Source: a virus
Direction: 5' to 3' (one strand)
Virus record (IMG/VR): IMGVR_UViG_3300030102_005217
Coordinates: 1-39,241 of that record
DNA length: 39,241 nt
A program made the position numbers and the translations under genes. Positions 2,890 to 28,132 of this stretch are shown piece after piece (within the stretch, counting starts at the first letter, position 1; the number at the start of each line of letters is the position of its first letter). The notes under the pieces were generated by a model, which saw only the letters and a program-made list of their open reading frames with translations, made no database searches and had not been told where the DNA came from.

Positions 2890-3324
2890 TTACTCTACTA
2901 CTTCTACTAACTCAATTTCAAAATTTAAATCTTCACCAGCTAATGGATGATTCATATCTAAATTTACACTTTCCTCTTCAATTTTAACAATTTGTCCTTG
3001 TACTGGTCTACCTTGGTTGTCTTGTCCTTGTACAAATCCATTCATTTCAAAGTTCATTTGTGGTGGAAATTCATTCTTTTTAACTGTTATAACAGCTTCT
3101 GTAATGTATTCACCGTAAGCTTCTTTAGCCTCTAATTTAACTTTAGTTTTTTCACCCACATCTAAATCTTTAACAGCATCATTAAATCCTTTTAATAATT
3201 TACCGTCATCTATTGCAAATTCTAATGTTTGTTTTCTTTCTCTTGAGTTGTCAAATTCTGAACCATCTTTTAATGTACCGACATAGTGTACTTTTACTTT
3301 ATCTCCTGATTTTAATTTAGTCAT
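2890..3324 (-). CDS. FKBP-type peptidyl-prolyl isomerase, SlyD-like
   Basis: Family role: cis-trans isomerisation of prolyl bonds, with chaperone activity carried by an inserted flap domain. Seen: FKBP strands KVKVHYVGTLKDGSEFDNS (about 10-28) and GFNDAVKDLDVGEK (about 46-59), then EAYGEY and an insert-in-flap segment at about 76-121, then NHPLAGEDLNFEIELVEV near the C-terminus, the SlyD signature. The 144 residues match SlyD without its metal-binding tail; there is no His/Cys-rich tail. The start ATG overlaps the UvsX stop by 8 bases (ATGACTAA), implying translational coupling. The partner is unknown. Its place inside a replication operon suggests it folds or switches a replication protein, which is inference. 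Confidence 0.92.
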   Translation of the reverse strand: MTKLKSGDKVKVHYVGTLKDGSEFDNSRERKQTLEFAIDDGKLLKGFNDAVKDLDVGEKTKVKLEAKEAYGEYITEAVITVKKNEFPPQMNFEMNGFVQGQDNQGRPVQGQIVKIEEESVNLDMNHPLAGEDLNFEIELVEVVE

Positions 3325-20003: not shown

Positions 20004-20492
20004 TTAGTAAACTAAGATACATCTATCTGGTCGCAACGTGGCTGAAATTGTCGCTAACCCATCATCACTATATCCTAAACTATCAAAATTAACATCTGTA
20101 AGGAATGTTCCCTGCATTATCCATTTTTCTACAACAACACCTGTTGGGTCTAGTAACTCTAAATCTATATTCTTTTTGTATCCTGCCGCATAACCCATTC
20201 TACCTGTTACTGACTCTGCGTGTAATCTAACCCACTCCATAAGTGCTTGTGCAGCAGATGGTCCGATTGGGTCTCTAAAAGTTACGTTTATGGTGTTCCA
20301 AACAAATCTTCCCGCAACATACGTAGATGTGTTAAGAAACGGTACTTCCACAGAATTAATTGTTACTTGTGGTCTAGAAGTACTCTCTACATACCATTCA
20401 TTAATCCCCAAAGATGAATCAAATCTTAAAATAAACCTATTCTTTTTCTTTGGTTCATAAGGTATAGGCATTTTCATTAATAAGTCAGCCAT
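20004..20492 (-). CDS. Tail tube protein, gp19-like
   Basis: 162 residues, the size of T4 gp19 (163). Seen: NRFILRFDSSLGINEWYVES, a segment VAGRFVWNTINVTFRDPIGP, and QALMEWVRLHAESVTGRMGY, followed by a C-terminal strand DGLATISATLRPDRCILVY; this is the usual order of strands and helix in gp19-type tube proteins. Role: stacks as hexamer rings to form the inner tube for DNA passage. It ends at a strong terminator, consistent with high-level, single-gene expression. A late-type motif lies upstream at 20529-20537. Confidence 0.92.
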   Translation of the reverse strand: MADLLMKMPIPYEPKKKNRFILRFDSSLGINEWYVESTSRPQVTINSVEVPFLNTSTYVAGRFVWNTINVTFRDPIGPSAAQALMEWVRLHAESVTGRMGYAAGYKKNIDLELLDPTGVVVEKWIMQGTFLTDVNFDSLGYSDDGLATISATLRPDRCILVY

Positions 20493-20558: not shown

Positions 20559-21422
20559 TTAATTTAACTGTTTTAATATAATTTTATTCATTCCACCTTC
20601 TGAAGTGTCGTAGACAACAAAATCAACATCAGGAAACTCTGATTGTAATACATTTTTTATAAATCTTACAATAGCATTTATATTACCTAAATCATCATCA
20701 CTAAACCCAACAGATAATTTATTGTAATCTGTATTAACCATTTCTTTAGTTTTACTAACAATTTTTGTTACGTAGTCTCTTAATGCTATTTTTTTATTTT
20801 CTTCTGGACTTATAGCAGAACCACCATCTAAACCAAACTGTCCCATAAAAGACTCTGAAGTTACTGGATGATATTCATGACTATCTAAATAAGTTTTTAA
20901 TACTGTTTCAGCGTCCACACCATCTAATTCAGGTATTTCTTGTTGGATGTTGTCAATCATATCATTTAATTCATTTTCAGTAAAAGTATAAGATACGACT
21001 AGGTCCATTCCTTTTCTAAGTGTTTCGGGTTTATGTCCTCTAGCTGTTATGATTGATATTGGGTTTGCGTAAATAAGTGCTTCCTTAAACTTATTAAATG
21101 ATGGTGCATAAGATTTAGTATTTAAAGCTTTTTCTAGGTCTTTTATAAATGCCTCGTCGTCTATAAAGTTATCAAAAGCTCCATCGTCTAATTTGTACAT
21201 AGTATTATTTCTAAAAAACGCAAAGTCTTCCGTACCTACATCTACAGGTTTCCAATTACCACCTGTCTTCTTTAACATTTTTATGGTGGTTGGCATTTTA
21301 AGAATATTATCGTCCCAATCAAAAGAATAAGCTCTAACATTTTTACCTGTTGATTCTTCCTCTTTAATTAAAGACTTAAAAATACTTAATTGTTTAGGTG
21401 TTATAATAATGTTTCTTCCCAT
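20559..21422 (-). CDS. HAD-like phosphatase/hydrolase with N-terminal helical tag
   Basis: Start chosen at the ATG at 21422 (MGRNIIITPKQ); an earlier TTG at 21437 lies within a promoter-like TATTTATTG. Seen: motif I with DxD in SFDWDDNIL (Asp35, Asp37), motif II ISIITARGHKPE, and a late acidic motif VGFSDDDLGNINAI; these fit the HAD superfamily. The first 23 residues (IIITPKQLSIFKSLIKEEE) resemble a helical sequence found in three other proteins here. Substrate unknown; no cap domain was identified. A 5'/3' polynucleotide or nucleotide phosphatase is one possibility. It stands alone between the tail tube gene and the divergent secreted-protein cassette. Confidence 0.78.
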   Translation of the reverse strand: MGRNIIITPKQLSIFKSLIKEEESTGKNVRAYSFDWDDNILKMPTTIKMLKKTGGNWKPVDVGTEDFAFFRNNTMYKLDDGAFDNFIDDEAFIKDLEKALNTKSYAPSFNKFKEALIYANPISIITARGHKPETLRKGMDLVVSYTFTENELNDMIDNIQQEIPELDGVDAETVLKTYLDSHEYHPVTSESFMGQFGLDGGSAISPEENKKIALRDYVTKIVSKTKEMVNTDYNKLSVGFSDDDLGNINAIVRFIKNVLQSEFPDVDFVVYDTSEGGMNKIILKQLN

Positions 21423-21425
21423 ATA

Positions 21426-21434
21426 CAATAAATA
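21426..21434 (-). promoter_or_regulatory. Late-type promoter motif (TATTTATTG)
   Basis: Coding-strand GTATTTATTGTAT ends only 3 bases before the ATG at 21422. If it is the -10 element, the HAD-like mRNA would have almost no leader. Weaker than the other copies. Confidence 0.3.
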
Positions 21435-21443
21435 CAAATTAAT

Positions 21444-21474
21444 TTTGTTTATTCACTATTTTTAGTTATCTTTG
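21444..21474 (+). promoter_or_regulatory. Host-type (Bacteroidota) promoter of the lipoprotein gene
   Basis: TTTG at 21444-21447, a 19-base spacer, and TATCTTTG at 21467-21474, a full match to the Bacteroidota consensus TTTG-N19-TAnnTTTG. The ATG follows 5 bases later, so transcription would begin at or next to the start codon, giving a leaderless or nearly leaderless mRNA. Confidence 0.85.
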
Positions 21475-21478
21475 TATT

Positions 21479-22051
21479 ATGAAAAAATTATTAAAATTAC
21501 TTTGTCTTATATTATTAATTTCTTGTGAAAAAGAAACCTTAATAATTCCTTGTGAAAATACGTACCCAACAACACAAAATCCGGTACCTTACGTTGATGA
21601 TTATTTTATAGATGATTGTTGGCTATTGGTTGATGGTGAAATGTACTTAGAGAATCTAGAAACAGGTGAAATAGAGATGACAAATCATTTTACTATTAGT
21701 GATAGTAGTAGTTTAAGATATGATAGTAGTATGTATGAGTTTGAAGACCTAGTTAAAAATGTTACTACTTGGTGTTTTTATTTACCTAATGATATACCAG
21801 GTATGGGACATTTTACATTGGATGGTGATACTTTACAACCTTATGGTTTGTCTGTAACACACAATAATATGACAATAACAGAACCTCTTGTTGGTTCTTA
21901 TCTACTATTAGGTGGGTCTGGGAGACCTATTTTATACGAAATCTTGGATTTTGAGAACAAAATAATAATGATACACGTACAAGAATCATATGAAAACATA
22001 AATGGGTACAACTGTAGATACCACTCAAAACTAAAATTTAAAAAAAATTAA
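21479..22051 (+). CDS. Phage-encoded lipoprotein of unknown function
   Basis: 190 residues. The N-terminus MKKLLKLLCLILLISCEKE is a signal peptide: two Lys, a Leu/Ile core, and a lipobox LISC with the acylated Cys at residue 16, followed by EKE, a charged patch reminiscent of surface-export signals of Bacteroidota lipoproteins. The mature part is beta-rich with Cys25, Cys47 and more, and motifs LLLGGSGRPILYEILDFENK. No family recognised. Strand is opposite to its neighbours, with its own host-type promoter. Likely exported to the outer membrane; superinfection exclusion or another change of the host surface is the obvious hypothesis, unproven. Confidence 0.85.
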   Translation: MKKLLKLLCLILLISCEKETLIIPCENTYPTTQNPVPYVDDYFIDDCWLLVDGEMYLENLETGEIEMTNHFTISDSSSLRYDSSMYEFEDLVKNVTTWCFYLPNDIPGMGHFTLDGDTLQPYGLSVTHNNMTITEPLVGSYLLLGGSGRPILYEILDFENKIIMIHVQESYENINGYNCRYHSKLKFKKN

Positions 22052-22068
22052 AATATACACAAAATAAC

Positions 22069-22099
22069 TTTGTAGTTTAAAAAAAATTTCTTATCTTTG
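22069..22099 (+). promoter_or_regulatory. Host-type (Bacteroidota) promoter of the secreted-protein gene
   Basis: TTTG at 22069-22072, a 19-base spacer, and TATCTTTG at 22092-22099. The -7 element is identical to that before the lipoprotein gene. The ATG at 22141 is 41 bases downstream with an A-rich leader (AAAAATAAAAAAA) typical of Bacteroidota translation starts. Confidence 0.85.
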
Positions 22100-22140
22100 T
22101 ACTATAATTAAACGAATTCTAACCACTAAAAATAAAAAAA

Positions 22141-22587
22141 ATGAAAAATTTATTCTTATCCTTACTTATTTTACTAACTAGTTTTTCTGTTAAATCACAA
22201 AACTCTGATTTTCCATATTCACAAAAAGATTATTTAATAAAAATGAATGAAGTTGTTAAGGTTGTTGAGGATTTATATAATACTTATGGTGAAGATACTA
22301 TTATGGTAAATCAATTAGTAGATTTGTCTTGTAGTGAGGTTTATGTATTATCTGGTTTAGGGACAATTGATGATGACTTTAGTGTGTCTGAAGCTATAGA
22401 AGAGTGGTTTGTACCAACAATCAATAGGTCTTGTGATTACTTACCTACAACAGTAACCGTAATAGAAAAAGATTGTTGTAAATGGGGTGTGTGGTTCAGA
22501 GTTAAAGTAACAAATATGTATGGTGTAAATAACTATATAGATTTTGGAATCAATAAAGAAAATAAGTTACGTTCAATTATCTTGTAA
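22141..22587 (+). CDS. Small secreted protein with Sec signal peptide
   Basis: 148 residues. The N-terminus MKNLFLSLLILLTSFSVKSQ is a type I signal peptide with probable cleavage near residues 19-20, the common Bacteroidota form ending SQ or AQ. The mature part has a helical acidic stretch (KMNEVVKVVEDLYNTYGED) and then a beta-rich section with four or five Cys including a Cys-Cys pair (EKDCCKWGVWFRVKVTN), suggesting disulfides in the periplasm. No family recognised. It follows the lipoprotein gene after 89 bases and has its own host-type promoter and terminator; a shared role in the host envelope is inferred. Confidence 0.85.
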   Translation: MKNLFLSLLILLTSFSVKSQNSDFPYSQKDYLIKMNEVVKVVEDLYNTYGEDTIMVNQLVDLSCSEVYVLSGLGTIDDDFSVSEAIEEWFVPTINRSCDYLPTTVTVIEKDCCKWGVWFRVKVTNMYGVNNYIDFGINKENKLRSIIL

Positions 22588-22590
22588 AAA

Positions 22591-22616
22591 AAAACTCCCT
22601 AAAAAGGGAGTTTTTT
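22591..22616 (+). terminator. Terminator, probably bidirectional
   Basis: The stem ACTCCCT, loop AAAA and stem AGGGAGT are flanked by an A-run on the left and a T-run on the right. It closes the plus-strand cassette 3 bases after the 148-residue gene and, read on the other strand, may also end the 361-residue gene. Confidence 0.88.
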
Positions 22617-22636: not shown

Positions 22637-23722
22637 CTAACATTTTATTGAATTTGAACGATTATACTTTCCACGAACATTACTACTAGTTTTTGACCAG
22701 TTTTTAGAATTTTTTAGTGCATCTGGTAATGCTTGACAGAACTCGTATTTTTCATTTCTATCTACAATCCCCTGTACCATTTGTTCCCAACGGCTACTTG
22801 AGCCCTCAACGTTACCATTTTTATAAAAATATACTGTTTGTCGGTCACCACCTTTTGGCATGTATGTTAAAACAAAATTACTAAACTTGTCTGGTGCATC
22901 TTGTTCATTTTCTCTTTTACTTTTATTCAACTGATAACCTATATAACTTCCTTTCTCACCATCACTTCTTTTGGAACTACCTGCTCTTTCTGATGTTCTT
23001 ACTTTGTAACGTGATGGGTCAAATTCTGAGAATGAAGCAAATAACTGATTCACATCACCCACATCGACACCTAACTCTTCGGCTTTCCTTGCTACTATTT
23101 TCTTTAATATTGTGGAAATTCCACTCTTATACTTTTTTGGGTATTTGTTTGCTAATGTATCGTACATTTGATTATCTTTACTATAATCATATCTCCAGTC
23201 TTTTACTGGTTTACGTTCATCTCTACTAGAAATAAGGTCACCAAAATCTGCCCATCTTACAACCGCACTACCCTTTACTGGTTTTTGCTTTTGTTTGTTA
23301 TATTTGTAGACTAGTTCAGCTCCTATATTTATATTATCTTGACCAAATAATACTCTTTTGAGTTTTGTAACTACAGCATTAGGGTCTACTACTTCTTCTT
23401 CCTCCCCCTCTTCTTCTTCCTCTTCTTGTTCTTTAACAACCTTACCCTCTTCAACACCTTCCATAGGTGGATTTTTACCATTTTCTTTTACCTCGTCTTC
23501 TTTTCCTTCAACATGGTCTTCTTTATGACCTTCTTCCATGTCTTTTTCTTCCATATCTTCTTTTTCTGTAAGGTCTTTATATTTTGCTGTAGGGGTACCC
23601 ATTAGACCGAAATTTTGGCCATTTCCATTACCTATATTTTCATTTAATTGTTCTTCACTAATTAAATCTAGTCCCATTATTTCACGAGCTCTATTTAACT
23701 CATTTAAAATATTTTTTTCCAT
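22637..23722 (-). CDS. Acidic-linker protein with N-terminal helical motif, unknown function (361 residues)
   Basis: No family recognised. Three parts: residues 1-30 contain ILNELNRAREIMGLDLISEEQL, helical, with an I-S-E-E-Q-L match to other proteins here; residues 50-112 are a very acidic, low-complexity stretch ending in runs of Glu; residues 115-361 form a basic globular region with VVRWADFGDLISSRDE, SERAGSSKRSDGEKGSYIG and FVLTYMPKGGDRQTVYFY. The charge layout (short helix, acidic spacer, basic domain) suits a packaged or scaffold-associated virion protein, which is inference. It begins 5 bases after the 192-residue gene and is probably co-transcribed with it. Confidence 0.78.
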   Translation of the reverse strand: MEKNILNELNRAREIMGLDLISEEQLNENIGNGNGQNFGLMGTPTAKYKDLTEKEDMEEKDMEEGHKEDHVEGKEDEVKENGKNPPMEGVEEGKVVKEQEEEEEEGEEEEVVDPNAVVTKLKRVLFGQDNINIGAELVYKYNKQKQKPVKGSAVVRWADFGDLISSRDERKPVKDWRYDYSKDNQMYDTLANKYPKKYKSGISTILKKIVARKAEELGVDVGDVNQLFASFSEFDPSRYKVRTSERAGSSKRSDGEKGSYIGYQLNKSKRENEQDAPDKFSNFVLTYMPKGGDRQTVYFYKNGNVEGSSSRWEQMVQGIVDRNEKYEFCQALPDALKNSKNWSKTSSNVRGKYNRSNSIKC

Positions 23723-23727
23723 AGTTA

Positions 23728-24306
23728 TTAAATTTTTGCTATTGGTTTTATTATTTGTTTCATTCTTTTAATGTCTTCTTGAATTAATTTTTCTTTTTCA
23801 TCCTCAGACTCAAAGTGAGTTCCTTTTTCACGTCTATCTTCGTGGTCTTCATCATAAGCCATATCTTTTTCTAAAGCCTTAATATGTTTTTCATCTGCAC
23901 CTTCATCTTCACCATAGTTATATGTTTCCTCACCTTCACTATCTTCTTTTACATCTTTTTTCATTGCCTTTTTAATAGCTTTATCTTTTGCTGCTAAATA
24001 ATCGTCAGAATCTATGTCACCATCACCATCATGGTCTTTTTTCTTACCTTCTTCCATTTCTTTTTTATCTTTAGCTGCTTTTTTCATGGTTTCTTTTTTG
24101 TCCCCATCACCATCTAAATCTAAAAAGTCTGGTTTAGCGTCTTCTTCTAATTTTATTTCTTGCCATTGTTCTTGAATAATTGATAAAACTCTTTCTAACT
24201 GTTCTTCACTAATAATTACATTTTGTTTTTTACCATTAGTAAAAGTTTTATTACCAGTAGACTTCTTATTTAAAGCTTCAACCAATATTTTTTTTGTAAA
24301 TTTCAT
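23728..24306 (-). CDS. Acidic/lysine-rich protein with EF-hand-like loop (possible prohead core or virion protein)
   Basis: 192 residues. Near residues 30-47 is VIISEEQLERVLSIIQEQ, and near the C-terminus LIQEDIKRMKQIIKPI, both similar to a helical motif in neighbouring proteins. Residues around 60-72 contain DLDGDGDKKE, and DHDGDGDIDSDD is a near-perfect EF-hand calcium loop. Much of the rest alternates Lys and Glu. In other phages proteins of this composition are core or scaffold proteins of the prohead; I infer that role only from composition and context. It precedes the 361-residue gene and follows the tail sheath gene. A late-type motif sits 8 bases before its ATG. Confidence 0.75.
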   Translation of the reverse strand: MKFTKKILVEALNKKSTGNKTFTNGKKQNVIISEEQLERVLSIIQEQWQEIKLEEDAKPDFLDLDGDGDKKETMKKAAKDKKEMEEGKKKDHDGDGDIDSDDYLAAKDKAIKKAMKKDVKEDSEGEETYNYGEDEGADEKHIKALEKDMAYDEDHEDRREKGTHFESEDEKEKLIQEDIKRMKQIIKPIAKI

Positions 24307-24327: not shown

Positions 24328-27300
24328 TTATATATCTTCAAAAGAGGCCCCAGTAGGTGTTATTAGGAATTCAACGAATATATATTCTAAAGCTCTTGTT
24401 GGTTTAATATATATCTTACCATTCATTTCATTTCTATCTATTTCTTCTGGGTCATTTGAAAGAACAACTCTAAAGTCTGTTAAACCTCTGTCTCTTCTAA
24501 TAGAATCTAGTATTGGATTTACCAAGTCTAAGAATTGTTGTCTAACCACATCATCATTTTGTTCGAATATTAATCTTACTGCTACCGCTGATATTAATTT
24601 TCTAGTTTGTAGTAATAATCTTCTAACATTAATTCTATCTAAAGCAGACTCTCTAATTTGTAGAGTTTTATTACCCCAGATAATTGGACCTGTATCACTA
24701 AATGTTGCGATTGGATTCAATCTACCAACGTATAATGTATCTCTTTCATCTAACGTAAGTTTCTTTCTAGCTTTCACAGCGTTAACTAAACCTCTTGTAT
24801 AACCAGCTGATGCGAACCATGGGAATGATATATTATCTGTTAGAGCTATGTTTCTCATTACCTCCGCAGTTGGTGGTATGTATACTTGTTTATTGTTAGC
24901 CGCGTCTCTTATCTGAACCCAAGGATAATAAGTTGCTGTATAGTTAGAATCTATTAGAGAATCTTCTATATTATCAACAGCTTCATCAGGTGTTACTTGA
25001 TTAGTTGGGTCTGAGTTTGTTGTTACAAACATGTTATAATCTGGTGTTGTAGTAATATATAATGAATCTGCTCTATCAGTTTCCACCATATCAATTGCTT
25101 CATTTACTAAACCTAAATTATCAACATAATCAATTCCTGGTGTTGCAAATACATTTATATCTACAGATTCTGGATTACTAAATTCATTTATACCTCTTAA
25201 ATAAGCGAAGTAATCTGTATTAGCTTCATTTGTACTTAATTTTTTGAATGAACCGTCACCAGTTGCTGTTGGGAAATCTGAACTTGTACACGCTCCATTT
25301 AAGAATCCAGTTAGACCCATTCTATAATCATCAGTATTAGACCTAGTTTTTCTGTAAATGTCGAATCCGTCAAAACCACCATGTGGTGCAACCGTAAATT
25401 TACGTGACCTTAAAGATTTATATGGTTCAGTACTTAAAGTAGGCTCTGTATTAAATTGTCCAACACCACAATCAAAGATAGATTCACCATTTAAAGTTGT
25501 AGAAGACCAATTCAAGTAAGTTCCTACACCACCTATTACTACTGTAGCTCCAGAATCCATATGGAATCCTTTAGTTAATACTTCCCACTGTGAACCAGCA
25601 GTTCCTGTACAAATGTTTGTTGGTGGGATATAACCTTTAAAGTCAAAGAAGTCAGCGTCGTATCCAGCACCAGTACTATCAGACACACCTAGATAAACTT
25701 TACTTACTTTATCACCACCACTTCTTACTACGTTATTACCTGTAGCTGAACCGTATGGTGGGTCAAATACTATCTCACCTGGGTTATAATATTTTGTTTT
25801 ATATACAATTTTTGGGTTTACACCACAATTTCCATATCTTCTAAATCTATACCCCTCAAAACCAGCCGGTAAAGAACCAGTATAGGTACCATCTAGTAAA
25901 GCTTCTGTTGGGTATATCATAGTGTACTTAGATTTTAATTCAAACTCACCTGTCGAAGTACCTATTTTTCTACAAACAAAAGATACTTTAGTTGGGTCTA
26001 GACTACATCTAGTGAATTTTTCTAATACAACAGGATTAGCGTCTGTATCATAGAAATCTCTAACTATAATATCAAACTCACCTCTCTCAAAAGACAAGTT
26101 AACAATAGATACTTTATATTCTCTATTAGCTGCTGAACCGTCTGATATAGAAACAAATTTAAATAACCTAAATACATCAGTACCTTGTAATTCAGATACA
26201 ATATAAGGTGTTTCAGGTGTTTCCCATTGATTCATGTACCAGGCTATAGTGTTCGTGTTTACTGCAGCTCTTGCACTTGGTAGGTATTGTAGACAACATT
26301 GAAGTCCCCTAACTTTTCCTAATTTTCTTCCTATATTTAATAGTGTTGGGTAAGCCTCCTCAACAAAGATAGGTACGTCTACTTGTTTCTTATCAAATGG
26401 AGTTCTACCAAACACTCTAGGTGCAAAATTTTGAGCCGTATTAGACATAGAAGCTTCAAAAGTATAAACGTTACCCTCATCAGTTTTAGCACTAATTCCA
26501 AATGTAGCAAATGGGTCTTCAAGTACAGCTTCATAAGAACCACTACAATCAAATTCTACATTTCCTACTGTATTTGCACTTATTGCGTATACTGGACCAC
26601 CACTACCTAGAGAACTTAAACCTCTAGACCTAAATGTTAGTATGTCCATACCATCATATTCTGTATTAGCTGTTACTCCTTGGTAGTTTATAATATCAAA
26701 TACAGCATACCCGGATAAAACAACAATTGTACCACCAGTACTATCAAATGTTGTACCAGTAGCTTGTTCCATCGCCTCTCCGACTCCGTGAGTATATCCA
26801 CTTGAGTATAGTTGGTATGATAACCCACTATATGTTGTACCTGTACAACATTGAGTGCTTCCAGTGTATTCAAATAAACCGTAATACCAAGGGTCGTTTT
26901 CATAAGAAGTTAAGTCTGCACAATTTGTTGATAAAACATTTGTTACTGAAGTAGTTGTAGCTGTTGCTCCATCACTTGCGATTGTATAAGCAGATAACGA
27001 ATCTGTTGTTATACCAGTTGCTGTGTCAGTTAAATATTGTGGTATACAACCATATTGATATATGGTACCGTCTAAGGCTACTGGTATACATGGGTCCACT
27101 CCATATGTACACCCACCGGTAGCACCAGAAGATAAAGCGGTGTTAAAATTAGTATCACTACTAAGTGCTATAGACTCTTGTGCCCAATTTAAAAATGATT
27201 GATTAAATGATGAAAGTGTTGAACCGTCATTTAATGTAATAGTTTGTCCTGTTTCTGACCAAGAACCAAAATCGATACCTGTTAATTCTGAAGGTATACT

Positions 27301-27807
27301 TGTCCAAAACGGTGTAGTAAGAGCAGCACTTGTAAAAGCATCGGCACCAACTGTGGTACCAGAATAATAACTATCACCAGTAAGTGGTATGAAAAATGGT
27401 ACTGTAAGTCCTGAAGAAGAAGTCAAAGCTGAATAAGAATGCTCAAGACCCGATGGTTCTAACTGACCTATAGTCTGAATTGACCAAGAAGGTCCAGCAT
27501 CATAACCACTTAAACCTAATACTCTAGTTACAAATAGTTGATTTGATTGACTTAAGTATGATTTTGCAATATATCCTAACTCATATTTAGGGATTTGTGA
27601 ATCTACGTACAATTCTGGTGACGTTCCACCGAATCTAGTTACAAAATCATCATAAGATGATATAAATATTGGTTCAAAGGCTGGTCCTTTTAAAGTTTCA
27701 CCAACCAAACCTAGTGTTGTAACACCAACACTTTGTGCTACAAATGTTAAATCTTTCTCTGATGTATATACACCAGGAGAAACAAATACCTTATTACCGT
27801 CTGCCAT
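24328..27807 (-). CDS. Tail sheath protein, gp18-like, unusually large
   Basis: 1159 residues against about 660 in T4 gp18. The N-terminus (VFVSPGVYTSEKDLTFVAQS) and C-terminus (RQQFLDLVNPILDSIRRDRG, then DFRVVLSNDPEEIDRNEMNG and YIFVEFLITPTGASFEDI) are typical sheath ends, and the middle has the handshake-region sequence FRRYGNCGVNPKIVY. The extra length comes mainly from insertions between roughly 120 and 450, with repeated Cys (GGCTYGVDPCIP, STQCCTGTTYSG) and many Ser/Thr/Gly, probably exposed on the outside of the sheath. Role: contracts to drive the tube into the host. It starts with ATG at 27807 and has a late-type motif 34 bases upstream. Confidence 0.92.
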   Translation of the reverse strand: MADGNKVFVSPGVYTSEKDLTFVAQSVGVTTLGLVGETLKGPAFEPIFISSYDDFVTRFGGTSPELYVDSQIPKYELGYIAKSYLSQSNQLFVTRVLGLSGYDAGPSWSIQTIGQLEPSGLEHSYSALTSSSGLTVPFFIPLTGDSYYSGTTVGADAFTSAALTTPFWTSIPSELTGIDFGSWSETGQTITLNDGSTLSSFNQSFLNWAQESIALSSDTNFNTALSSGATGGCTYGVDPCIPVALDGTIYQYGCIPQYLTDTATGITTDSLSAYTIASDGATATTTSVTNVLSTNCADLTSYENDPWYYGLFEYTGSTQCCTGTTYSGLSYQLYSSGYTHGVGEAMEQATGTTFDSTGGTIVVLSGYAVFDIINYQGVTANTEYDGMDILTFRSRGLSSLGSGGPVYAISANTVGNVEFDCSGSYEAVLEDPFATFGISAKTDEGNVYTFEASMSNTAQNFAPRVFGRTPFDKKQVDVPIFVEEAYPTLLNIGRKLGKVRGLQCCLQYLPSARAAVNTNTIAWYMNQWETPETPYIVSELQGTDVFRLFKFVSISDGSAANREYKVSIVNLSFERGEFDIIVRDFYDTDANPVVLEKFTRCSLDPTKVSFVCRKIGTSTGEFELKSKYTMIYPTEALLDGTYTGSLPAGFEGYRFRRYGNCGVNPKIVYKTKYYNPGEIVFDPPYGSATGNNVVRSGGDKVSKVYLGVSDSTGAGYDADFFDFKGYIPPTNICTGTAGSQWEVLTKGFHMDSGATVVIGGVGTYLNWSSTTLNGESIFDCGVGQFNTEPTLSTEPYKSLRSRKFTVAPHGGFDGFDIYRKTRSNTDDYRMGLTGFLNGACTSSDFPTATGDGSFKKLSTNEANTDYFAYLRGINEFSNPESVDINVFATPGIDYVDNLGLVNEAIDMVETDRADSLYITTTPDYNMFVTTNSDPTNQVTPDEAVDNIEDSLIDSNYTATYYPWVQIRDAANNKQVYIPPTAEVMRNIALTDNISFPWFASAGYTRGLVNAVKARKKLTLDERDTLYVGRLNPIATFSDTGPIIWGNKTLQIRESALDRINVRRLLLQTRKLISAVAVRLIFEQNDDVVRQQFLDLVNPILDSIRRDRGLTDFRVVLSNDPEEIDRNEMNGKIYIKPTRALEYIFVEFLITPTGASFEDI

Positions 27808-27903: not shown

Positions 27904-27932
27904 GTATGAAAATATTCATACTTTTTTCATAC
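27904..27932 (+). promoter_or_regulatory. Candidate operator: three GTATGAA/TTCATAC half-sites
   Basis: GTATGAA (27904-27910), spacer AATA and TTCATAC (27915-27921) form a perfect inverted repeat; a third half-site TTCATAC follows at 27926-27932, 11 bases (one helical turn) after the second. It lies between the sheath promoter and the promoter-like motif of the small ribbon-helix-helix-like gene, so it is well placed for control of either. The T-run after the repeat means a weak terminator cannot be excluded. Confidence 0.55.
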
Positions 27933-27939
27933 TATACGT

Positions 27940-27953
27940 TATTTATTGTAAAA
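27940..27953 (+). promoter_or_regulatory. Late-type promoter motif (TATTTATTGTAAAA)
   Basis: Plus-strand TATTTATTGTAAAA ends 11 bases before the ATG at 27965, directly after the candidate operator. One position differs from the commonest form of the element. Confidence 0.4.
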
Positions 27954-27964
27954 ACCCTTACTAT

Positions 27965-28132
27965 ATGCGTTCAGAAAGTAAAAAACAAAAAATTAAAAAT
28001 ATAAAGATTAGTATTAAGTCTCATTCTTTACTAAAAGAGTATTGTAAAAATAATGGGTTAAAGATGTTTGCTTTTGTAGAAAAATTAATAACTGAAAAAT
28101 GTAAACCTAAAAAAGGTATATACATGGAATAG
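27965..28132 (+). CDS. Small ribbon-helix-helix-like DNA-binding protein
   Basis: 55 residues with the start placed at ATG 27965 (MRSESKKQK); longer starts from TTG would read through the operator and promoter-like motif. Seen: basic N-terminus, a short strand KNIKISIK (11-18), helix SLLKEYCKNNG (21-31) and helix KMFAFVEKLITEKC (33-46), the strand-helix-helix order of Arc/MetJ-type repressors and of small phage proteins of that type. Role: inferred transcription regulator. The repeat of three half-sites just upstream suggests it controls itself and possibly the sheath gene. Its stop is one base short of the stop of the convergent gene. A non-regulatory small protein remains possible. Confidence 0.68.
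   Translation: MRSESKKQKIKNIKISIKSHSLLKEYCKNNGLKMFAFVEKLITEKCKPKKGIYME

Follow-up and report, generated by a model that had tools for sequence, protein, structure and literature searches.

The 39,241-base stretch analysed here (the window) is part of a 44,140-base virus record that, judged by its gene content, is a T4-like phage: it encodes a tail tube protein, a baseplate hub-like protein, a family B DNA polymerase and an SNF2 helicase. The host is very likely a member of the Bacteroidota. The closest matches of the DNA polymerase come from Salinibacter phages, those of the tail tube include Rhodothermus and Flavobacterium phages, and the DnaK encoded by one relative (G003) is closest to proteins of Flavobacteriales and Cytophagales, many of them marine. 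Within the tail module, two plus-strand genes for putative secreted proteins lie amid minus-strand genes and, with their control elements, make up the feature under study (21444-22616). The locus contains:

20004-20492, minus strand: tail tube protein (PHROG 4542, E 2.4e-30), the next gene beyond the left neighbour
20559-21422, minus strand: left neighbour, divergent and conserved, HAD phosphatase-like by eye
21423-21478: divergent intergenic region of 56 bp, with a phage-type element leftward and a host-type promoter rightward
21427-21434, minus strand: TATTTATT, the window variant of the phage-type element TATTTATA, 4 nt before the ATG of gene 20559-21422
21444-21447, plus strand: -33 element TTTG of the lipoprotein promoter, N19 spacing
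21467-21474, plus strand: -7 element TATCTTTG of the lipoprotein promoter, 4 nt before the ATG, with the transcription start predicted at the ATG
21479-22051, plus strand: core gene for a 190-aa lipoprotein, with signal peptide at residues 1-15, Cys16 predicted to be lipidated and a predicted lipocalin-like barrel at ~40-190
22069-22072, plus strand: -33 element TTTG of the second promoter, N19 spacing
22092-22099, plus strand: -7 element TATCTTTG of the second promoter, predicted start near 22104, leader of ~37 nt
22141-22587, plus strand: accessory gene for a 148-aa signal-peptide protein of unassigned family, with a Sec-type signal (MKNLFLSLLILLTSFSVKSQ) by a simple rule
22589-22616, both strands: symmetrical intrinsic terminator
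22637-23722, minus strand: right neighbour, convergent, function unassigned (context gene)
23728-24306, minus strand: conserved acidic protein adjoining the sheath gene (context gene)
24328-27807, minus strand: large conserved tail gene, taken as tail sheath by size, gene order and sequence

Both plus-strand reading frames of the original prediction are present. Their neighbours had been described as tail genes; the setting within the tail module bears this out, but the left neighbour is no recognised tail protein: it has no Pfam match, and its HAD likeness was seen only by eye, in a DWDDN motif. Relatives of this gene with 29-35% identity occur in uncultured phages of 630-735 kb (INPHARED LR745206 and LR756501-LR756504), so that this tail-module gene also occurs in huge phages. 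The layout had also been called unique in the window, which holds for secretion combined with a promoter but not for gene orientation, because a second lone plus-strand gene (27914-28132) lies amid the minus-strand tail genes. This small gene, beside the sheath gene, has a weak Arc-like repressor match and is kept in nearly all relatives, distant ones included. An Rfam search returned no family within 21444-22616. Elsewhere in the window, the minus-strand gene 2890-3324, which adjoins a recombinase-like gene, has by eye the look of an FKBP-type peptidyl-prolyl isomerase.

Promoter elements and terminator

Bacteroidota sigma-A promoters combine TTTG with TAHHTTTG ~19-20 nt apart and start transcription 4-5 nt downstream, and the transcripts of Flavobacterium johnsoniae begin 4-5 nt past the -7 box (PMC6847099). 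A full promoter of this type had been proposed for each cassette gene, and the exact arrangement TTTG-N19-TATCTTTG indeed occurs twice in the window, upstream of both genes, against 0.03 copies expected; none of 300 dinucleotide shuffles contained two. With spacing relaxed to TTTG-N18-20-TATCTTTG, the count remains two against 0.06 expected. The looser TTTG-N17-22-TANNTTTG is common by chance (six seen, three expected), and its other four sites are intragenic. The sequence elements of a sigma-A promoter are present and conserved, and the start site is a prediction. Given a start 4-5 nt past the box, the arrangement TATCTTTG-N4-ATG would place the transcription start of the lipoprotein gene at its ATG, so that the mRNA is predicted to be leaderless. 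The closing terminator also proved to be as proposed, a strong hairpin (-16.8 kcal/mol, z -5.7); its symmetry allows it to end the convergent minus-strand gene 22637-23722 as well.

The lipoprotein promoter is widely kept. The window and 34 other contigs retain an intact TATCTTTG-N4-ATG, preceded at 19-20 nt by TTTG, and TTTTG or TTTGG stands at the -33 position in all relatives. In every one of 12 whole records, the lipoprotein gene has the exact promoter, which is rare elsewhere: ten of them contain a single copy, setting aside extra sites (G007, G011) and, in G000 and the nearly identical G006, the promoter of the second cassette gene. In relatives of 155,892 bases (G003) and 128,462 bases it occurs at the lipoprotein gene only. 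A perfect host promoter can therefore serve as a signpost, which in these genomes picks out one gene, the lipoprotein. Back-to-back host-type promoters also lie between divergent DnaK and ClpB-like chaperone genes (L141:578-4654 in G003; G001:75057-79141).

Phage genes generally carry a different element. Counts of the T4 late promoter TATAAATA equal chance over the window; a signal appeared once the motif was read on the gene strand as TATTTATA. In the window and five relatives (G001, G002, G003, G007, G008), 103 of 123 intergenic copies of TATTTATA lie on the gene strand, versus 28 in reverse. Many phage genes carry one, mostly 4 or 12-19 nt before the ATG, and TATTTATA is probably the phage's own -10-like promoter element, often yielding leaderless mRNAs. 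It stands ahead of the counterpart of gene 20559-21422 in most relatives. The lipoprotein gene lacks the element that its divergent neighbour has. G003 also encodes a sigma-70-family protein with regions 1.2, 2 and 4 (L148:2385-3185, equal to G003:142385-143185), with a loose host-type promoter 83 nt upstream of its gene; this protein is a candidate reader of TATTTATA.

Secretion signals and predicted fold

The lipoprotein begins with MKKLLKLLCLILLISC-EKE, which includes a lipobox with Cys16, and the SC of the lipobox (residues 15-16) is invariant in 22 homologues. By the simple rules used for signal-peptide and lipobox calls, no protein of the 44,140-base record other than the two cassette proteins is a candidate for secretion, and the cassette lipoprotein is the sole lipoprotein detected across six records. 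Surface-exposed lipoproteins of Bacteroidota carry an LES signal, C-X-K-(D/E)2 or S(D)n, after the cysteine (PMC5080379). In the homologue alignment, the sequence from the lipid cysteine onward is C-E-K-E-T/P or C-E-K-N, with one acid only after the K. The LES signal, a rule derived from other genera, is thus absent, which predicts a periplasmic orientation for the lipoprotein.

The protein families had been called unrecognisable and stayed so: searches of Pfam, PHROGs, NCBIfam and PADLOC with both window proteins gave nothing usable. A profile search against the sequences of solved structures yielded chance matches only, and isolated-phage records contained no relative of the lipoprotein. An AF2 model of the lipoprotein built from 22 sequences (pLDDT 75.7) folds residues 40-190 into a barrel whose local confidence is good outside one loop (residues 41-130 and 151-190 mostly 80-94). 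Foldseek found weak matches among solved structures. The rows of a VIA-align comparison are mostly lipocalins, with Z of 6-6.8 at the top, below the safe level for such matches. The best BFVD match, from Myoviridae sp. ctPuP5 (A0A8S5LA00; E 2.3e-3, TM 0.40/0.53), is named lipocalin-like. We regard a lipocalin-like single-sheet barrel as having moderate support from these models, because a Z under 8 may reflect a common arrangement. Lipocalin-like lipoproteins are common in Bacteroidota, where they have other roles, a point against an exclusion function.

Inheritance of the lipoprotein and turnover of its partners

Relatives of the locus were gathered through the neighbouring gene 20559. The lipoprotein is found at the same spot, on the opposite strand, in all 26 loci whose copy of that gene has 68% identity or more. 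Scanning viral contigs with a profile detected it in 35 of them in total, and the eight new loci inspected adjoin the same neighbour. Its pairwise divergence follows that of genes 20559 (r 0.58) and 19076 (r 0.84), with none of 1000 permutations as good. Its dN/dS is ~0.29, versus 0.04-0.18 for the neighbours; the lipoprotein is under purifying selection yet evolves faster than they do. Constant position and neighbour-tracking divergence show that the gene is inherited with the genome rather than being a mobile moron: it belongs to the core of its phage clade and is passed on vertically. The lipoprotein is absent from the spot in more distant loci and in L030 and L031, where gene 20559 is 61% identical. 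In the latter two (L030 5594-5725, L031 6876-7007), the host-type promoter is kept without the lipoprotein and leads to an 83-aa two-helix membrane protein, a state that is either a loss of the lipoprotein or older than its presence.

The original prediction had classed both cassette genes as morons. The comparison of related phages at this spot rejects the label for the lipoprotein, which is always there in the 26 close relatives, and upholds it for the second gene, which is present in some and missing from most and has its own promoter and terminator. Outside the window, the second protein has relatives only in two near-identical contigs (97%), and its AF2 model, built from 3 near-identical sequences, reaches a pLDDT of 39. 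Matches of 27% to it in L005 and L006 were discarded as chance, as the peptide NMYGVNNY is shared with an unrelated protein.

Other relatives fill the second slot differently. In some it holds a different secreted family of 136-149 aa (A4), which shows no kinship to the window's second protein nor to the lipoprotein (the signal peptide alone aligns). L013 has a 197-aa secreted protein there, further relatives have a two-helix membrane protein instead, and L088-L090 have nothing. Most second genes of these other kinds start within ~30 nt of the lipoprotein gene and have no promoter of their own. In many relatives a two-helix protein of 78-83 aa (A3) follows; the window record and L088-L090 lack it. 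Around the core lipoprotein, the rest of the cassette is thus variable, with swapped partners. The secreted protein of L013 (L013:431-1024), which has no Pfam match, looks related to G007:93376-93903, and both have a ERAIFNEVNRHRDSVG-type start; the L013 copy occupies the second slot, and the G007 copy lies outside the cassette spot, two genes behind an exact host-type promoter.

A two-helix protein next to a lipoprotein could suggest a lysis module, the former acting as holin and the latter as outer spanin, and the lipoprotein does have a very weak Rz-like PHROG match (E 0.33). However, this match spans the signal peptide alone, a beta barrel, not a coiled coil, is predicted, and the promoter is of host type, whereas lysis genes are late. 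With the two-helix protein missing from the window and L088-L090, we consider a lysis function quite unlikely.

The swapped partners also bear on the idea that, soon after infection begins, the cassette counters a host defence located in the membrane or periplasm. A second slot with at least three unrelated kinds of secreted protein, fast evolution and a host-type promoter would all suit such counter-defence. We nevertheless think it unlikely, because the lipoprotein is kept across the clade whatever its partner and no likeness to known systems emerged from PADLOC, whose entries are defence and not counter-defence proteins.

Vertical inheritance and purifying selection, as in a house-keeping phage gene, together with the predicted lipocalin-like fold, could instead point to envelope maintenance or host fitness. 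The lipoprotein would then be an early carrier of lipids or small hydrophobic molecules, or would protect the envelope, and have no part in exclusion. A weak cellular look-alike (L267) exists in Flavobacteriales. No close cellular homologue was found, either by a pattern scan of 84,980 bacterial and archaeal species genomes or by a profile search of 296 Flavobacteriales-order genomes, the latter giving weak matches only, several of them to the signal peptide alone. The lipoprotein moreover evolves faster than its neighbours, and its strongly variable partners suggest conflict instead, making a maintenance role somewhat unlikely in our judgement.

The family extends to a second phage group. In the 210,157-base record G015, the first 170 residues of a 303-aa lipoprotein match it in a profile search (E 1.4e-20), and hhalign agrees (E 1.6e-20, 31% identity). 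Four more proteins of the G015 type were found, in which the family is fused to a second domain. The two-helix protein of this group has no detectable kinship to A3. These homologues sit elsewhere in the genome, and each has TTTG-N19/20-TATATTTG upstream, with a leader of ~30-37 nt; in 20 kb of G015, the single site of this kind is at the lipoprotein homologue. The host-type promoter thus goes with the protein and not with the place alone. In the G015 locus, 0.6 kb from the lipoprotein homologue, an 832-aa secreted protein (L174:2967-5465) carries the C-terminal sorting domain of type IX secretion (PF18962, E 1.1e-12); the host type IX system apparently serves as the route for this phage protein.

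If the lipoprotein were a virion protein that happens to be encoded on the other strand, its place inside the virion module and its presence in all close relatives would be expected, and conservation of both cassette genes as virion proteins had been named as an outcome that would overturn the envelope proposal. Conservation was found for the lipoprotein, but a virion role is opposed by its signal peptide with the invariant lipobox and by a host-type promoter in place of a late element. The distant homologue at another genomic place adds to this, and a virion role is highly improbable.

Proposed function and known exclusion systems

The reading we favour, though with somewhat less than even confidence, is an early, host-sigma-driven envelope cassette that most likely serves superinfection exclusion. 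Once the phage DNA enters, the host primary sigma factor would transcribe the lipoprotein gene into a leaderless mRNA running opposite to the strand of the late tail genes; its promoter elements are consistent with early expression. After export, the product would receive a lipid at Cys16 and become attached to the outer membrane, as its signals predict, probably on the periplasmic side. There its lipocalin-like barrel may bind an outer-membrane component and, much as T5 Llp and T1 Cor do, disable the receptor or entry route on which this phage or its relatives depend. In relatives, further envelope proteins added to the same transcript might tune the effect. By analogy we favour exclusion because early phage lipoproteins at such a place are best known for it. 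A point against it is that, within the tail module, the lipoprotein gene adjoins the HAD-like gene, towards the tail tube, and apparently not a receptor-binding gene.

More tentatively still, the cassette may represent a new class of Bacteroidota phage exclusion system: an early lipocalin-like outer-membrane lipoprotein as the core of a modular cassette with swapped second and third slots, read from the back of the late tail module and shared by two groups of T4-like phages that differ in its position but agree in its promoter logic. Nearly all that is established about superinfection exclusion and lytic conversion comes from phages of E. coli and its relatives, and the literature searched contained no described case of either in Bacteroidota phages. 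If the proposal is right, these abundant, uncultured marine phages would carry an undescribed protein family for which the time of expression can be predicted and a likely cellular location named.

Among known systems, T4 Imm resembles the relatives' accessory two-helix protein in size (83 aa from a 252-base CDS, versus 78-83 aa with two hydrophobic helices). However, imm sits among replication genes, the two-helix gene in the tail module, and hhalign detected no kinship between the two proteins (probability 0.2%). T4 Spackle is a secreted partner in superinfection exclusion. With the lipocalin-like lipoproteins of Bacteroidota and Myoviridae sp. ctPuP5 (A0A8S5LA00), the lipoprotein shares a predicted single-sheet barrel, but its Z of 6-7 is middling and no Pfam or NCBIfam family was reached. 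Unlike morons, it is vertically inherited, and the phage shows no tested sign of lysogeny.

Both T5 Llp, which jams FhuA from the periplasmic side (PMC9586334), and T1 Cor, which also targets FhuA (PMC13164509), are made early in infection. Rtp45 of phage Rtp, a periplasmic outer-membrane lipoprotein of ~6 kDa, targets LptDE by distorting LptD from inside (PMC12685063). The window protein is likewise predicted to be an outer-membrane lipoprotein on the periplasmic side, but it has ~175 mature residues, a different predicted fold and presumably another target, and no sequence similarity to Rtp45 was found. Comparison of the lipoprotein with known exclusion lipoproteins gave no PHROG, Pfam, PDB-sequence or fold match, which is weak evidence because such proteins diverge fast. 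We do not file it as a member of the Llp/Cor group, because kinship went undetected, both size and predicted fold are different (~175 mature residues and a lipocalin-like barrel versus small proteins, in different hosts) and its exclusion effect is a proposal. In anatomy, the lipoprotein is Llp/Cor-like: as with T5 Llp and T1/phi80 Cor, it is a phage-encoded lipoprotein, here predicted to reside in the outer membrane, whose gene lies in the tail region.
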